A stretch of 64,000 nt of DNA from NCBI RefSeq assembly GCF_900169305.1, contig NZ_FWDP01000003.1, positions 1 through 64,000 of the forward strand, read 5' to 3'. Positions within the stretch are counted from its first letter, which is position 1. Every line of letters begins with the position of its first letter. Both the position numbers and the translations under genes were made by a program. This DNA is from Marinilactibacillus piezotolerans. GTDB taxonomy: Bacteria > Bacillota > Bacilli > Lactobacillales > Carnobacteriaceae_A. Below are positions 23,754 to 39,559 of the stretch, piece by piece. Below the pieces are notes generated by a model, which saw nothing but the letters and a program-made list of their open reading frames with translations, was not told the origin of the DNA and did not search any database.

Positions 23754-24317
23754 TCATTTTTTAGCTGTAGAAAATTTCTGATAGACATTTTTCAGCTGCG
23801 GATTTGTAGCCAAAAACCAGATCGTTACAAAGTGAATCACTGCCGTCAACGCATTTTGCGCTAACCGAATCGGTAAAATCACTCCTAAAGGATTTCCCGT
23901 CAAGATCAGAATCCAAATGGTGTTCAGCGTCAAGTTCACAAATATCGTATTGAATGCCACAACAGCTGCAATTCTCCACCAGTGAATGTTTTTCCTATGC
24001 AGAAAGAATCCATAAGCCACTCCGCCGATAAAGGCAGATACCGTAAACCCCGGAAAGAATCCGCCGACACCGCCCAGCAGCACAAAAGCTAATAGATCAC
24101 TAAAGGCTGCAGCAGTCCCTGCAATCAGCGGACCGAATAGGATTCCCAGCAATGCAATGGGTAAAAAGGCAAAGGTAATACGGACAATTGGTGTACTGAT
24201 GCCCACCCTGCTCAATGCGATATTCATGGCGATCAGGATTCCAATGATGACTATTTCAATAGTTCTGATTTCCCATTTTGATCGTTTTGGTCGGTTACTG
24301 TAAAAGTTGTTATTCAT
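23754..24317 (-). CDS. folT: folate ECF transporter S component FolT
   Basis: A 187-residue membrane protein with about six hydrophobic helices and the pattern IVRITFAFLPIALLGILFGP with a following GTAAAFSDLLAFVLLGG segment, typical of the FolT branch of ECF S components. It binds folate or reduced folates at the membrane and uses a shared EcfAA'T engine encoded elsewhere. ATG at 24317 follows AAAGGAG; longer in-frame starts run into the leader. A THF riboswitch lies about 130 nt upstream, confirming the substrate. It is the last gene of a five-gene folate/one-carbon block. Confidence 0.9.
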   Translation of the reverse strand: MNNNFYSNRPKRSKWEIRTIEIVIIGILIAMNIALSRVGISTPIVRITFAFLPIALLGILFGPLIAGTAAAFSDLLAFVLLGGVGGFFPGFTVSAFIGGVAYGFFLHRKNIHWWRIAAVVAFNTIFVNLTLNTIWILILTGNPLGVILPIRLAQNALTAVIHFVTIWFLATNPQLKNVYQKFSTAKK

Positions 24318-24445
24318 TTCGAAGATCTCCTTTAATTTGAACTCACGCACTGCATAGTGATATCTATACAGTTTCCGTCCGCTGCAGTTGGAGCGCAGCA
24401 GACCAACGTTCGTCAAAGAGTCCTCGCTAAAAAACGATTAAGCTT

Positions 24446-24540
24446 TCAAGCGGATGCAGAGAGGAGTCGCAAAACGGGTCGTTTTTTCGTCTGAGGGCAA
24501 CATCCCATCCACTCAGCACTTAACGCTCATCTCTTACTCT
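24446..24540 (-). promoter_or_regulatory. tetrahydrofolate riboswitch
   Basis: The minus strand carries the conserved pieces of the folT-associated THF riboswitch in order: GAGCGTTAAGTG, GGATGGGATGTTGCC, CTCAGACGAA and TGCATCCGCTT. These match the Streptococcus mutans folT aptamer by eye. It lies between the cyclo-ligase gene and folT, so folate would control folT separately from the upstream genes. The expression platform in the next 120 nt is not clear. Confidence 0.9.
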
Positions 24541-24571
24541 TTTTCGTCTATTTTATACGTGGTTATATCTT

Positions 24572-35140: not shown

Positions 35141-35923
35141 TCAAATAGTTGGAGTCAGTTTGTCTTCTTCAAATAGTTTCAACAGGTCTTTTAGGGTCAT
35201 CTGATCTTTTTCCTGTTGGTTCAGGTCTAGTGTGATTTCACCGTCTTTCATAACGATCAGACGATTTCCGTAAACGAGTGCATCTTCCATTTGATGCGTA
35301 ATCATCATGCAAGTCAGACGTTGTTCTTTAATCAGCTCATCGGTCAGCTGCATCAGTCGTTTCGACGTTTTAGGATCGAGAGCAGCTGTGTGCTCGTCCA
35401 GCAGCAAAAGCTCCGGCCGAGACATCGTTGCCATCAGTAAACTCAGCGATTGTCTCTGCCCACCCGATAATTGACCGGCTGGAGTATCGATATGTCGTTC
35501 CAATCCGTTACCAATTGAAGCACACAGCTCTTGGTAACCCGCTTTTTGTTTCTTCAATCCGCGCGGCTTCAGCGTCTTCTTCTTTCCTCTAAGTTGAGCT
35601 AAGAAGAGGTTTTCCGCTACAGTCATTCTAGGAGCTGTTCCCATTTTAGGATCTTGAAAAACCCGGGAGATATATCCCGCTCTTTTTTCTTCTTTCCAGT
35701 TAGTAATGTTTTTTCCATTCAACTGAACCGTTCCGCCTGTTGTTTCTGTTGAACCGGTAATACTATTGAATAAAGTAGATTTCCCGGCCCCGTTCCCACC
35801 CAGAACAGTCACAAACTCACCTTCATTTAAAGTGAAATCTACGCTATCCAGGATTTTATTGTCTTCATCGGCCTGATTGGAAATGATTTTGGTCAATTGT
35901 TTCAACTCTAGTAATGCACTCAC
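35141..35923 (-). CDS. trpZ: tryptophan-type ABC transporter ATP-binding protein
   Basis: A 260-residue ABC ATPase: GGNGAGKSTLFNSI (Walker A), FQDPKMGTAPRMTVAEN (Q loop), LSGGQRQSLSLLMA (signature), LLLLDEHTAALD (Walker B) and MITHQMEDAL (H loop). The RVFQDP.MGTAP stretch is typical of ATPases paired with ABC_sub_bind-type binding proteins. It overlaps the permease gene by four bases (ATGA). Substrate is inferred from the leader with Trp codons and from TrpXYZ of streptococci, not from the ATPase itself. Confidence 0.85.
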   Translation of the reverse strand: MSALLELKQLTKIISNQADEDNKILDSVDFTLNEGEFVTVLGGNGAGKSTLFNSITGSTETTGGTVQLNGKNITNWKEEKRAGYISRVFQDPKMGTAPRMTVAENLFLAQLRGKKKTLKPRGLKKQKAGYQELCASIGNGLERHIDTPAGQLSGGQRQSLSLLMATMSRPELLLLDEHTAALDPKTSKRLMQLTDELIKEQRLTCMMITHQMEDALVYGNRLIVMKDGEITLDLNQQEKDQMTLKDLLKLFEEDKLTPTI

Positions 35924-36813
35924 GCTTTTTCTCCTTTCCCGATCAGCGTTCCTAAGTTCAATGAACGTCTAATCTGCGGAATCATCAAGCAGATTGCTAG
36001 AATCACTGAACTGTAGATTCGGATATAGGTTGTATCCAGCCCAAGCTGAATAACGCCAAGCAGCAGCAACTGGTATAAGATACTTCCGATGACGACAGCA
36101 CCTAAACGTTGTCCAAGTTTCAAATTACCAAATAGAACTTCTCCAATGATCAGTGAAGCCAGTCCTATGACAATGACTCCTGTACCACCATTGACGTCAG
36201 CGTACCCTAATTCTTGAGCTACCAGCGAACCGGCCAGCGCAATAATTCCATTTGAAATCATTAGACCTAAAATTTTCATTTTATCTGTATGGATACCAAG
36301 GGAACGAGCCATTTCTTCATTATCTCCTGTCGCAATGAAGGCTTGTCCCAGTCGGGTATAAAAGAATCCCAGCAACAATATGATCAATAAGGCCAACACG
36401 ATCATCCCTGTAAAAACGACATCATAGTAGTCTGGCAGTCCTTGGAAAAAGTAGTAAATACGGTCATGATTCAGCAGACTGAGGTTAGGACGCTGCATGA
36501 TAAACAGGATGACAGAATGGAGTCCTGTCATAACCAGTATTCCAGCTAAAATAACGGGGACTTTTCCTTTAGTGTATAACAGTCCAGTCACAAGCCCTGC
36601 TCCCATACCAGCCAGCACCGCAAGCCCCATTGACAGTATGGGAGAAACGCCCGATACAATTGCAGTAACGGCTACAGCAGAGCCTAAAGGAAATGAGCCT
36701 TCTGTTGTAAGATCCGGAAATTTCAGTATTCGGTATGTCAAGTACAATCCAATACCCAGCACAGCCCAAATCAGTCCATCAGCGATCGCTGATATGATCA
36801 AGCTTATGAACAT
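35920..36813 (-). CDS. trpY: tryptophan-type ABC transporter permease
   Basis: A 297-residue membrane protein with about eight or nine hydrophobic helices and the branched-chain-type permease segments YLTYRILKFPDLTTEGSFPLG and AFIATGDNEEMARSLGIHTDKMK (cytoplasmic coupling region). It belongs to the permease group that partners ABC_sub_bind proteins. It lies two bases after trpX and overlaps trpZ by four, so the three are translated from one message. Confidence 0.85.
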   Translation of the reverse strand: MFISLIISAIADGLIWAVLGIGLYLTYRILKFPDLTTEGSFPLGSAVAVTAIVSGVSPILSMGLAVLAGMGAGLVTGLLYTKGKVPVILAGILVMTGLHSVILFIMQRPNLSLLNHDRIYYFFQGLPDYYDVVFTGMIVLALLIILLLGFFYTRLGQAFIATGDNEEMARSLGIHTDKMKILGLMISNGIIALAGSLVAQELGYADVNGGTGVIVIGLASLIIGEVLFGNLKLGQRLGAVVIGSILYQLLLLGVIQLGLDTTYIRIYSSVILAICLMIPQIRRSLNLGTLIGKGEKA

Positions 36814-36815
36814 GG

Positions 36816-37862
36816 TTATTCCTCTCCTTCTGCTATCGGTTCTACAATTTTACTATTATCTAAAATGTCTTGAGGTATTGTGATCCCCAAATCATCTACT
36901 TTTTGTATATTGATCAGCTGGTCTCCGCCTTTAACGATATAGACTGGATATTCTGCGGGATCTTTTCCATCTAAGACTTCTGCAGCCACTCTTCCGGATT
37001 CCACACCCAGTTTAGTTTGGCTGATCCCGATTGTTGCCAGACCACCTTGTGCAATCATATTATCTACAGTAGGGATCAGTGGAATATCATAACGGTCTGC
37101 TTCACTGACAACTGTGTTAAAAGCACTAGCAATCGTATTATCTGTCGGAAGATAGATAACATCTACTTCATCTGCCATGGTTGCGACCATCTGTTGAATT
37201 TCGTTTGTATTAGAAACTTTGTATGTCGTTGCATTCATCCCTAACGCTTCAACAGCTTTTTGGGCTCTTTCGCCTTCTGCACGAGCATTATCTTCTCCGG
37301 AACTGTACAGCAATCCAACTTCTTGTGTTTCAGGTAAAATCTCTTTCAAAAATGTAAGTTGATCCTCTACTGGCGCTTTATTCATTACTCCAGTAATATT
37401 TCCACCAGGATTTTCAAGTGAGTCTACTAAACCTGAGCCAACCGGATCTGAGACAGCCCCCATAATGACTGGAATGTCACTAGTTGCATTAGAAAGTGCT
37501 TGACTCGCTGGTGTACCAATCCCGATCACCAGATCCGCTCCTCCCTCAACGAGTGATTTAGCCATTGTATTCATTAAATTCTGGTCTCCTTGTGCATTTT
37601 GGAACTCGATTTCAACGTCTTCTCCTTCTGCATATCCATTCTCTGCTAGACCTTGAATCGTTCCTTCAGTAATCTGATCAAGTGACGGATGACTTGTTGT
37701 CTGCAGAATTCCGATTTGCAGTTTTTCTTCTGTTACCGCTTCGCTTTCGGAAGCTTTACTTGCTGTTTCTGTTTCCCCTGAGCCAAGCATGGGAAGAATA
37801 AGTCCTCCTGCTAGTACAAGAAATATCAATGCAACTGTTATAATCAAACCTTTTTTCTTCAT
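36816..37862 (-). CDS. trpX: tryptophan-type ABC transporter substrate-binding protein
   Basis: A 348-residue periplasmic-binding-type protein of the ABC_sub_bind family. After an N-terminal hydrophobic segment (about residues 5-26) come IGILQTTSHPSLDQITEG, EIEFQNAQGDQNLMNTMA, VIGIGTPASQALSNAT and VIMGAVSDPVGSGLV. No lipobox cysteine is present, so it is held by an uncleaved helix or released. Streptococcal members bind tryptophan; here the leader region contains two Trp-codon peptides, which supports that substrate. The start follows GAGAGGGA at eight bases. Confidence 0.87.
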   Translation of the reverse strand: MKKKGLIITVALIFLVLAGGLILPMLGSGETETASKASESEAVTEEKLQIGILQTTSHPSLDQITEGTIQGLAENGYAEGEDVEIEFQNAQGDQNLMNTMAKSLVEGGADLVIGIGTPASQALSNATSDIPVIMGAVSDPVGSGLVDSLENPGGNITGVMNKAPVEDQLTFLKEILPETQEVGLLYSSGEDNARAEGERAQKAVEALGMNATTYKVSNTNEIQQMVATMADEVDVIYLPTDNTIASAFNTVVSEADRYDIPLIPTVDNMIAQGGLATIGISQTKLGVESGRVAAEVLDGKDPAEYPVYIVKGGDQLINIQKVDDLGITIPQDILDNSKIVEPIAEGEE

Positions 37863-37914
37863 TTTAATAATCCCTCTCTATTTTAACTTTTTTAAAATCA
37901 ATATTATTTTTACG

Positions 37915-37953
37915 TCATCTGTTTTTACAGTTCCAGTCCCAGTCAGATTTCAT
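37915..37953 (-). CDS. second Trp-containing leader peptide
   Basis: ATG nine bases after AAGGAG opens a 12-codon frame, MKSDWDWNCKNR, with two Trp codons separated by one codon. Its stop is 53 bp before the trpX ATG. The ATG lies in a TCAGAT/ATCTGA hairpin and CGTCAT/ATGACG could enclose the whole frame. A stalled ribosome here could affect translation of trpX, as rtpL does for rtpA in Bacillus; that is inference. Confidence 0.55.
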   Translation of the reverse strand: MKSDWDWNCKNR

Positions 37954-37980
37954 CTGAACCAACTCCTTCATTGAATGACG

Positions 37981-38009
37981 ATTTTATCAACGGCTTTTCA
38001 GCTGAACAA
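37981..38009 (-). promoter_or_regulatory. possible second promoter before trpX
   Basis: Minus strand TTGTTC (38004-38009), a 17-bp spacer and TAAAAT (37981-37986) preceded by TGA (extended -10). It lies immediately after two tandem terminators and would start RNA just ahead of the second leader peptide. Confidence 0.5.
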
Positions 38010-38055
38010 AAAAAGGCAATTCCCACTTAAGTTTCAGTAGTGGAAATTGCCTTTT
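38007..38055 (-). terminator. second leader terminator T2
   Basis: Minus strand AAAAGGCAATTTCCACT pairs with AAGTGGGAATTGCCTTTT around a ten-base loop and runs into seven T residues. Its 5' arm AAAAGGC can also pair with the GCTTTTT that closes the first terminator. Confidence 0.87.
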
Positions 38056-38061
38056 CAGTCT

Positions 38062-38101
38062 AAAAAGCAAAAACCACATAGATATCACAAGATCTATGTG
38101 G
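38062..38101 (-). terminator. trp leader terminator T1 (attenuator)
   Basis: Minus strand CCACATAGAT (38101-38092) pairs with ATCTATGTGG (38083-38074), then TTTTTGCTTTTT. The 5' arm can instead pair with ATCTATGCGG at 38142-38133, a near copy of the 3' arm, which would prevent termination. That copy can in turn pair with GCGTAGAT at 38208-38201, right after the second Trp codon of the leader peptide. Confidence 0.85.
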
Positions 38102-38192
38102 TCGATTATCTAAAATTTCTAGAGAAATAAGCCCGCATAGATACAAAATTTAGAAAATTTCTAAACGTTGCATCCATGAGAGAGTCTCATAT

Positions 38193-38261
38193 CTACAACG
38201 ATCTACGCCAGCTTTGCCAGTTCATATTCAATTGTACTGTCTGCTTCGCATCGAAGGTCAT
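38193..38261 (-). CDS. Trp leader peptide of the trpXYZ attenuator
   Basis: ATG at 38261, seven bases after AAAGGAG, opens a 22-codon frame ending in LNMNWQSWRRSL. The two Trp codons are the 15th and 18th. It follows a consensus promoter by about 30 nt. The codons just after the second Trp (38208-38201) form one arm of an alternative stem that controls terminator T1. A ribosome waiting for Trp-tRNA would cover that arm, freeing the antiterminator. Too short for homology; support is context, codons, ribosome site and pairing. Confidence 0.72.
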   Translation of the reverse strand: MTFDAKQTVQLNMNWQSWRRSL

Positions 38262-38296
38262 GAGCTTTCTCCTTTGTCATCTTTAATGTGATTCTC

Positions 38297-38325
38297 ATAT
38301 TACCTTGTTCTTTTCAGCTTGTCAA
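38297..38325 (-). promoter_or_regulatory. trpXYZ leader promoter P1
   Basis: Minus strand TTGACA (38320-38325), an exact 17-bp spacer and TAATAT (38297-38302), a near-perfect consensus. It drives the leader with the 22-codon Trp peptide; the start should be near 38290. Confidence 0.85.
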
Positions 38326-38422
38326 CTTAAACTCTAAAATTTATATTGATTTTTTTGTACCACTGAAGAAGTTAAAAAAATCATGGTACACTAGTACAGG
38401 AGAGAACAGAAAGGTGTTTGTT

Positions 38423-39559
38423 ATGAAGAAAAAGAAAGTAGCTATTGTCGGAGCAGGCATAGTGGGTGCTTCTGCTGCTTACGTATTAAGTAAAGAACCT
38501 GATCTGGACATTACGATTTATGATGAAGGAATCGGTCAAGGGACTTCCGCCGCTGCCGGTATCATCAGCCCCTGGTTATCTAAACGCAGAAACAAAAAAT
38601 GGTACCGGATGGTCAAAGAAGGGGCTGCATTTTATCCGACCTTTTTAAAAGAAGTAGTTTCAGGACAGGACATTCCGCCTGCAGTTTACCGGAAAGTCGG
38701 TACGTTGTTATTTAAAAAAAATCCGAAACACTTAGAGGATTTACTGAAAATCGGGATAAAACGGAGAGAAGCAGCCCCGGAAATCGGCTCGCTCGCTATC
38801 TTGTCAGCTGAAGAAATCAGAAGTAAAATCCCACTCTATACAGGGACAGCATCTGCGCTCTGGGCTTCGGGCGGCGCGCGAGTAGATGGTCGAAGTTTAG
38901 TCGAACTGCTGCTGGAAAAAGCTGTACAGAATGGTGCCCAGTTGAAAAAAGAACGCGTTGAAGCTCTCGGCATAACGGAAAAAAACTATCGACTTCAGAC
39001 ACAGATAGAAGAAGATACGTATGAAGAAGTTGTTCTCGCTATTGCTGCTTGGCTGCCTTCCTTGCTGGAACCTCTAGGGTACAAGGTAGATATCCGCCCG
39101 CAAAAAGGCCAACTGATGGAGCTTCAATTATCTCAGACAGATACGCATAATTGGCCGGTCATTATGCCGGAAGGAGAGACGGATATTATTCCATTTGAAG
39201 GTGGTCGCCTGATTGTTGGAGCAACGCATGAAAACGATCAAGGATTTGATCTGGAGATCGATGAAGTAATGCTGCAGGAAATGTTGGCTGAAACAGCTGA
39301 TCTTTTTTCTCATCAGTTAAAAACAGAATCGATCAGCGCCTATCGATCTGGAACCCGTGCCTATACGTCAGATTTTGCGCCTTTCTTCGGACATGTTCCA
39401 GGGATGACGGGTGTTTATGCTGCCAGCGGTCTGGGCTCAACCGGCCTCACTGCCGGACCTCTCGTTGGACATGAACTAGCCCAACTGGTTATGAAAAAAC
39501 CGACAGTATTACCTCTAGAAGATTATCCAATCGAACGATATATAACAGCTGAATGTTGA
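38423..39559 (+). CDS. FAD-dependent oxidoreductase, DAO family
   Basis: The 378-residue flavoprotein has the dinucleotide-binding VAIVGAGIVGASAAY at residues 5-20, TSAAAGIISPWL (substrate-side FAD loop), RPQKGQLMEL in the middle and YAASGLGSTGLTAGPLVG near the end, typical of glycine/D-amino acid oxidase-like (DadA/YurR) enzymes. The substrate is unknown. ATG at 38423 follows AAAGGTG by six bases; a longer in-frame start 45 codons upstream runs through the opposing promoter. A TGG-TACACT extended -10 box lies near 38385-38393. Single gene with a strong terminator. Confidence 0.82.
   Translation: MKKKKVAIVGAGIVGASAAYVLSKEPDLDITIYDEGIGQGTSAAAGIISPWLSKRRNKKWYRMVKEGAAFYPTFLKEVVSGQDIPPAVYRKVGTLLFKKNPKHLEDLLKIGIKRREAAPEIGSLAILSAEEIRSKIPLYTGTASALWASGGARVDGRSLVELLLEKAVQNGAQLKKERVEALGITEKNYRLQTQIEEDTYEEVVLAIAAWLPSLLEPLGYKVDIRPQKGQLMELQLSQTDTHNWPVIMPEGETDIIPFEGGRLIVGATHENDQGFDLEIDEVMLQEMLAETADLFSHQLKTESISAYRSGTRAYTSDFAPFFGHVPGMTGVYAASGLGSTGLTAGPLVGHELAQLVMKKPTVLPLEDYPIERYITAEC

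Follow-up and report, generated by a model that had tools for sequence, protein, structure and literature searches.

In attenuators of the Escherichia coli trpL and hisL type, a short open reading frame (ORF) supplies control codons, antiterminator and terminator exclude each other, and a stalled ribosome allows read-through. A TRAP-binding leader consists of about 11 spaced GAG/UAG triplets. Leader-peptide attenuators of the classical logic have been described in Firmicutes for hisS/hisZ in bacilli (PMC2965389), for his operons of the Bacillus cereus group, Peptostreptococcaceae together with Lutispora, and Erysipelotrichales (PMC9413887), and for ilv of Staphylococcus aureus (PMC5794164); the available text of these papers reports them one by one and describes no shared codon-interchangeable scaffold, and it is these descriptions that set them apart from the scaffold presented here. 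T-boxes are described on tryptophan ABC transporter and NSS symporter genes, with Trp, Phe, and Leu T-boxes controlling NSS paralogs in the B. cereus group (PMC2494555, in the text available), and the trpX gene of Streptococcus suis is described as having a T-box (PMC9382623, likewise). The trpB motif (Rfam RF04312) was published as a strong orphan riboswitch candidate with >900 representatives (Narunsky et al. 2024, PMC11109978). The accessible part of that paper names Fusobacteria for the motif, and its authors speculate about an amino-acid-related ligand and call a classic attenuator "not ruled out."

The trpXYZ leader of Marinilactibacillus piezotolerans

The window, a stretch of 64,000 nucleotides from Marinilactibacillus piezotolerans, contains between a plus-strand gene for a DAO-family oxidoreductase and the minus-strand trpX gene a leader (Table 1) that is very probably a ribosome-mediated (leader-peptide) transcription attenuator, through which trpXYZ would be transcribed when charged tRNA-Trp is short. 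From its features we infer transcription and translation of the leader, ribosome stalling, a response to tryptophan, and a relay to a second terminator. A preliminary description, made from the letters alone, had listed the promoter, the AAAGGAG motif, the 22-codon frame with Trp codons 15 and 18, and the terminator with its T-run, and all of these read as described on the minus strand. It had also named the downstream genes trpXYZ, which protein family matches bear out (NF041285 and PF04392, PF02653, and PF00005), the TrpX match to NF041285 scoring 403 bits against a cut-off of 390. The stem of terminator 1 has 12 pairs (38103-38092 / 38083-38072) followed by TTTTTGCTTTTT, and it is the sole terminator-like site found between 37900 and 38600 (0.3 expected from shuffles) by a scan whose loop limit misses the second terminator. 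The segment GCGTAGAT (38208-38201) is complementary to ATCTATGC (38142-38135), and the hairpin at 38200-38166, which had also been described, has 14 pairs (−16.6 kcal/mol computed as a duplex). The leaders of four loci from the same genus (L036, L044, L046, and L047) read MNFDSKQTVQLNMNWQSWRRSL, and the genome itself holds one copy of the element. In line with the preliminary description, which saw no T-box here, RF00230 has no match in the window in a scan at the gathering cut-off, nor in 37900-38500 at E ≤ 1. Elsewhere in the window, a THF riboswitch (RF01831, 67.2 bits; 24446-24543, minus strand) lies upstream of a small membrane protein gene (23754-24416), which we take to resemble a folate ECF S component.

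Table 1. Features of the trpXYZ leader and operon, in window coordinates
Feature	Positions	Strand	Basis or remark
Promoter-like site, TTGACA-17-TAATAT	38297..38325	(-)	10/12 consensus positions
Shine-Dalgarno (SD) AAAGGAG of leader ORF	38269..38275	(-)	Sequence
Leader ORF, 22 sense codons, MTFDAKQTVQLNMNWQSWRRSL*	38193..38261	(-)	Sequence
Control codon Trp15	38217..38219	(-)	Sequence
Control codon Trp18	38208..38210	(-)	Sequence
Segment A, putative anti-antiterminator within leader ORF, partner of B	38201..38208	(-)	A:B covariation
Segment H1, contains stop codon, partner of A'	38185..38200	(-)	H1:A' covariation
Segment A', 5' arm of Rfam P1, partner of H1 or B	38166..38181	(-)	Covariation
Small hairpin in A'-B interval	38149..38165	(-)	Sequence, model alignment
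Segment B, P1 3' arm and putative antiterminator 5' strand, partner of A, A', and C	38130..38148	(-)	Covariation
Segment C, 5' arm of terminator 1	38092..38103	(-)	Terminator scan, covariation
Segment D, 3' arm of terminator 1 plus T-rich tail	38062..38083	(-)	Terminator scan
Rfam RF04312 (trpB motif) match	38062..38180	(-)	60.4 bits, gathering 59; model positions 1-107 of 107
Second intrinsic terminator, AAAAGGCAATTTCCAC / GTGGGAATTGCCTTTTTTT	38008..38055	(-)	Terminator analysis
trpX, tryptophan ABC transporter substrate-binding protein	36816..37862	(-)	NF041285, PF04392
trpY, permease	35920..36813	(-)	PF02653 (BPD_transp_2)
trpZ, ABC ATPase	35141..35923	(-)	PF00005

Three things had escaped the preliminary description: the competing helix A':B, which is Rfam P1; the second terminator at 38055-38008; and the fact that Rfam already has the RNA part of the element. 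The full-length RF04312 match exceeds the family's gathering score, and the window fits the family's description of two hairpins, the second an intrinsic terminator, 5' of trpB or an amino-acid ABC transporter gene. P1, the terminator hairpins, and the kind of downstream gene in the published motif (PMC11109978, as far as its text is accessible) are thus as in the window, whereas that description makes no mention of a leader ORF, of H1 and segment A, or of other amino acids. Within the family, 19 of 27 genomes match RF04312 at E ≤ 0.001, as do 211 of 395 sampled Lactobacillales genomes, representing 51 of 80 genera, with 60 of the 395 above the Rfam cut-off; across the phylum, 5 of 398 genomes matched under strict filters, the window's genome included. 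The Lactobacillales count contradicts the earlier view of this leader as a rare exception.

Leader codons and downstream genes

We inspected 152 RF04312 loci (L031-L182), of which 144 have an SD-led leader with Trp codons near its end, five have a Phe/Tyr-rich leader (L049-L052 and L054), and three have none that fits. The leader ORFs are 11 to 29 codons long (the search extended to 30 codons) and end a median of 16 nt before P1. At 143 of 149 loci there is an ATG-started ORF that has an SD of at least 4 and, toward its end, a Trp codon, against a mean of 3.8 of 149 (maximum 9) ATG-started Trp ORFs of this kind in dinucleotide shuffles of the same upstream DNA. SD-led ATGs fall in frames 0, 1, and 2 of the Trp codon in 152, 1, and 8 cases of 152, a comparison in which frame 0 is favored by the choice of ORF and frames 1 and 2 serve as the control. 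Judged from sequence, the locus has what a leader-peptide attenuator calls for, a short, potentially translatable ORF whose codons specify the operon's amino acid. Three weak RF04312 matches (L055, L056, and L162), lacking a fitting leader ORF and followed by unrelated genes, were dropped as members after the first count, and two leaders at first called Phe-rich (L149 and L182) proved to have been picked in another frame, TWQSWYKTLY being present in both. Of the 129 leaders with WQ, 128 have CAA directly behind the Trp codon, and LN or VN often precedes the control codons in several leader types; the pairing scheme gives no reason for either.

Segments A, H1, A', and B recur in leaders found by a P1 pattern scan and by a second Rfam family, RF02863. 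The scan of named genomes returned at least 117 loci, 80 of which were inspected (L203-L282) and 12 of those set aside (L204, L214, L215, L217, L222, L224, L234, L241, L242, L248, L257, and L275), having no fitting leader ORF and coming in several cases from other phyla. One Leu-type leader (L263) lies on the opposite strand and is without an ORF in the orientation used for counts. In all, 246 of 247 leaders were entered, one with masked bases (L261) staying unclassified, and 220 were kept after removal of identical ones. A further 37 loci from the scan (L283-L319), left out of all other counts, were viewed by eye: leaders of the types described here are present at 32 and missing from five (L284, L286, L304, L318, and L319). 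Streptococci and enterococci have [FY]YFSYFR-like leaders; Fundicoccus ignavus has an Ile leader, ATIISIIR, upstream of a branched-chain aminotransferase gene (L244); Terrisporobacter mayombei has a His leader, HHHHH (L282); and Clostridioides mangenotii has YYYYSQY (L274). A second Ile leader, NIIISIIR, was seen at L311. A leader with four Trp codons precedes trpB in Alloscardovia criceti (L221), possibly acquired from Lactobacillales.

RF02863 is filed as "Enterococcus sRNA 2410" and was found in 107 of 198 Lactobacillales genomes. All of its 30 best-scoring loci that we inspected have a Phe/Tyr (aromatic) leader, mostly FSYFR, where the window has a Trp leader, and all 30 lie directly 5' of a TrpX-like or AroE gene. 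The two families share one scaffold, and on contig G539:C1 a weak match to RF02863 (585118-585311), which at 41.4 bits falls short of that family's cut-off, overlaps a match to RF04312 that has a Trp leader (585168-585277). RF02863 appears to be a Phe/Tyr version of this attenuator that was wrongly entered as an sRNA gene. Loci of this family upstream of TrpX-like paralogs or aroE are L320-L349, L185, L187, L188, L194, and L195, the scan finding no fitting ORF at L194.

With a model derived from 43 leaders (R1), matches appeared in 39 of the 194 genomes of a clostridial order, that of G416, all within one family, and in 5 of 398 genomes across the phylum. A leader ORF is in place at 34 of 35 loci from both searches, some of them places seen before, and at 19 of 20 weaker places; because the last 24 nt of the ORFs are part of R1, codons toward the end are to some extent built into the model, and what the clostridial matches contribute independently is limited to the start of the ORF, the SD, and changes of codon. 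The leaders found in this way include FFFSFFR (Phe), AYYFNYYR and YYYSYYR (Tyr), and LLLLANL (Leu). Leu-type leaders, LLLLANL and the like, were noted in Clostridium at L395, L398, L399, L401, L402, L404, and L263, the first six of them upstream of an NSS symporter clade apart from the Phe and Tyr ones.

The codons mostly agree with the downstream genes. Among 210 downstream proteins, those behind Trp leaders are TrpX (138), TrpB (7), or other (3), and those behind Phe/Tyr leaders are a TrpX-like paralog (42), AroE (13), an NSS symporter (3), or a permease (1); one Ile leader precedes IlvE, one His leader an SBP, and one unclassified leader a TrpX-like protein, the IlvE, permease, and His-SBP rows matching by construction because the references are those loci's own proteins. 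Whole-protein families were assigned to ten examples: SBP_bac_3 (L282), Aminotran_4 (L244), BPD_transp_2 (L274), shikimate dehydrogenase (L203), PALP/TrpB (L221), SNF symporter (L352, L360, and L399), Branch_AA_trans (L390), and ABC_sub_bind (L206). TrpB and IlvE were also assigned by NCBIfam on 70-residue protein starts. Some genomes, G017, G020, and G023 among them, contain both a Trp leader with trpX and a Phe/Tyr leader with the paralog. In a tree of 180 TrpX-like proteins, made by a quick method and with its long branches flagged, a single branch (support 100) splits 137 Trp-leader from 42 Phe/Tyr-leader rows. Among 40 clostridial NSS proteins, those with Tyr leaders (15, support 90/91) and those with Leu leaders (6, support 100/100) each form one clade, whereas those with Phe leaders and mixed leaders do not; the labels change eight times on the tree, where shuffling gave 21.7 changes on average, and 0 of 200 shuffles were as low. 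A mismatch occurs in a few clostridia, in which aromatic leaders lie 5' of Branch_AA_trans-type carriers (L390 by Pfam). By eye, L365, L379, and L389 show the same arrangement of aromatic leader and branched-chain-type carrier. T-box matches were found at two TrpX-like loci (L198 and L199), in two genomes of another Lactobacillales genus.

These codon changes bear on explanations other than reading of control codons by the ribosome. TnaC-type stalling switches genes on with tryptophan, and a conserved WQ[SN] peptide might in the same way arrest on the ribosome and sense free tryptophan: WQ is present in 129 of 152 Trp leaders, LN or VN is frequent before the control codons, and in 44 of the 152 only one Trp codon stands close to the end. 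However, the residues switch wholesale with the downstream gene (YYYSYYR, LLLLANL, and HHHHH), and regulation in the TnaC sense would be wrong for uptake and synthesis genes, which makes arrest by the nascent peptide very improbable. We give slightly less weight still to a metabolite-binding riboswitch with an incidental leader ORF, which the publication of the trpB motif as a strong candidate (PMC11109978, in its accessible text) and the good conservation of P1 would favor: the leader ORF is in place at 149 of 152 loci, and because the P1/B core is common to seven codon types (Trp, Phe/Tyr, Phe, Tyr, Leu, Ile, and His), the would-be aptamer would have to stay constant across amino acids while the codons change. 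Least credible is an RNA working mainly in trans, with attenuation secondary, for although RF02863 is filed as an sRNA gene and terminated leaders would be short RNAs, its inspected loci (30 of 30) directly precede a TrpX-like or AroE gene.

Competing helices and ribosome position

Under leader-peptide attenuation, the order of the segments is A (within the ORF, starting at its second Trp codon), H1 (which contains the stop codon), A', B, C, and D, with A, A', and C competing for B, and H1 and B competing for A'. The default would be termination through C:D. With no ribosome on the leader, A:B would form around the H1:A' hairpin and leave C free for D; a ribosome at the stop codon would mask H1, so that A':B forms and C is again free for D. 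There would thus be two routes to termination, because B also pairs with A' (P1) and A' in turn has the stop-codon segment as a partner. With the ribosome stalled at Trp18, A would be masked and most of H1 left exposed, H1 would hold A', B would take C, and the polymerase would read on. Once freed, D may also pair with C2, the second terminator's 5' arm, and so carry the decision past this terminator.

Pairing energies of each locus's own strands were compared with those of strands swapped between loci, and own strands were better in 123 (A:B), 132 (A':B), 144 (H1:A'), 113 (B:C), and 148 (C:D) of 149 loci. For pairs outside the scheme the figures were 66 (A:A'), 104 (A:D), and 97 (A':D), D resembling B. 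Since relatives are not independent, we used disjoint nearest-neighbor contrasts (108 or 101, scored as compensating or opposing, the rest neutral), with p values uncorrected for the 16 pairs tested. Compensating changes outnumbered opposing ones for A:B (42 to 16, p = 0.0004), A':B (46 to 17), H1:A' (68 to 18), C:D (79 to 12), and C2:D2 (94 to 3). The pairing of A with B directly after the second Trp codon, which the preliminary description had proposed as anti-antiterminator, is accordingly conserved. Its antiterminator, B:C, is conserved as well, as the weakest of the switch helices (38 to 21, p = 0.018 uncorrected; Trp subset 26 to 16, p = 0.08; Phe/Tyr subset 12 to 5, p = 0.07). Of nine unproposed pairs, eight were not significant in the full set and A:D was (46 to 27, p = 0.017); the unproposed H1:B was significant in the Trp subset (35 to 18, p = 0.014). 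In an alignment of 43 leaders, 79.8% of the cells of A:B are paired and both partners have changed in 7 of its 14 pairs; the paired fraction is 93.8% and 92.3% for H1:A' and 92.6% for A':B. The covariation scores were reached by 0 of 500 shuffles, a control that does not remove relatedness. By eye, the end of B tracks the codons, CCAUCAUAGA occurring with UCUAUGGUGG in the His leader, UUAGCA with UGCUAA in the Ile leader, and AAUAACCAU with AUGGUUAUU in the Phe leader. The covariation of both C:D and B:C points to a mutually exclusive terminator and antiterminator. The comparison with related genomes that the preliminary description had called for, looking for conserved Trp codons and compensatory changes, thus found Trp codons near the leader end at 144 of 152 RF04312 loci, and pairings that covary. 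Comparison of sequences supports the leader ORFs, the codon-gene match, and helices A:B, A':B, H1:A', C:D, and C2:D2, and supports B:C more weakly.

Without a ribosome, the window RNA folded so that A:B and H1:A' coexisted, with 12.4 and 12.3 expected pairs, and with a ribosome at the stop codon it formed A':B (11.3); in either state C was left to D. Before D is made, a ribosome at Trp18 with its leading edge at +8 or +10 gave 5.7 to 6.0 expected B:C pairs, against 0.01 at the stop codon. The earlier proposal that a waiting ribosome covers the first arm and allows read-through would fit the rise in B:C at these two edges; at the others, B:C at Trp18 reached only 1.8 (+6), 0.7 (+12), and 0.6 (+14) expected pairs. 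Over 152 Trp leaders with the edge at +10, 51 gained more than two B:C pairs at Trp relative to stop, none went the other way, and 101 showed no clear change, so equilibrium folding backs the scheme only in part; over all edges tested, the effect appeared in 39 to 51 of the 152 and the opposite direction in 0 to 4. Elsewhere A':B outcompetes H1:A' plus B:C, so either the sequence in which the helices fold plays a part or something is missing from the model. Among Phe/Tyr leaders the effect was seen in 2 of 64, the hairpin after B being taken there as the terminator although it mostly lacks a T-run.

A second hairpin with a T-run lies downstream in 141 of 152 Trp leaders, 115 of which score well, and in 62 of 65 Phe/Tyr leaders, by loose criteria. 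The first hairpin is followed by a mean of 2.5 T of 9 in Phe/Tyr leaders versus 5.9 in Trp leaders, and because it is mostly without a T-run there, the second hairpin is probably the terminator in Phe/Tyr leaders. In the window, the 5' arm of the second terminator is complementary to D (−15.6 kcal/mol), and D:C2 was better with own than with swapped strands in 91 of the 115 Trp leaders with a good second terminator. Disjoint contrasts for D:C2 were not significant (43 to 33, p = 0.15), and for that reason we keep the relay only as an idea.

A proposed codon-reprogrammed scaffold

On balance, we favor a single homologous scaffold, present in Lactobacillales, a clostridial family, and outliers such as A. 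criceti, that has been reprogrammed by its codons for at least Trp, Phe, Tyr, Leu, Ile, and His, with B changed along with the codons and the released strand disarming the second terminator, and that would be a ribosome-read counterpart of the T-box. Like the T-box (RF00230), it would sense uncharged tRNA with one scaffold whose specificity lies in a codon set, before the same kinds of gene; unlike in the T-box, the codon would be read by the ribosome in a leader ORF. With E. coli trpL and hisL the leader in the window would share the leader-peptide logic, a likeness of mechanism. It differs from them in its two anti-antiterminators, A lying inside the ORF and A' held by the stop-codon segment, in its often tandem terminators, and in serving several amino acids with one scaffold. 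The Terrisporobacter His leader precedes an SBP_bac_3 gene and not the his operon. In the literature searched, which took in few subscription journals, we found no report that assigns a leader peptide to RF04312 or RF02863 or that joins the two families. The kind of attenuator is known; the single codon-reprogrammed scaffold and the function of the two Rfam families appear to be new.

The scheme offers a testable function for an orphan riboswitch candidate with >900 representatives and for an RNA filed as an sRNA, and indicates that both are one thing. With 211 of 395 sampled Lactobacillales genomes matching, the view of leader-peptide attenuation as exceptional in Firmicutes is weakened. Relatives of the window's TrpX with solved structures are described with tryptophan (3LFT), phenylalanine (3LKV), and tyrosine (6HNI) bound (PMC6816091, in the text available), so that one protein family is already known to span the three aromatic amino acids. 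Since the amino acid can be read from the codons of the leader, the scaffold predicts substrates for poorly annotated transporters: the TrpX-like paralogs would be Phe/Tyr importers, and there would be separate symporters for Tyr, Phe, and Leu.
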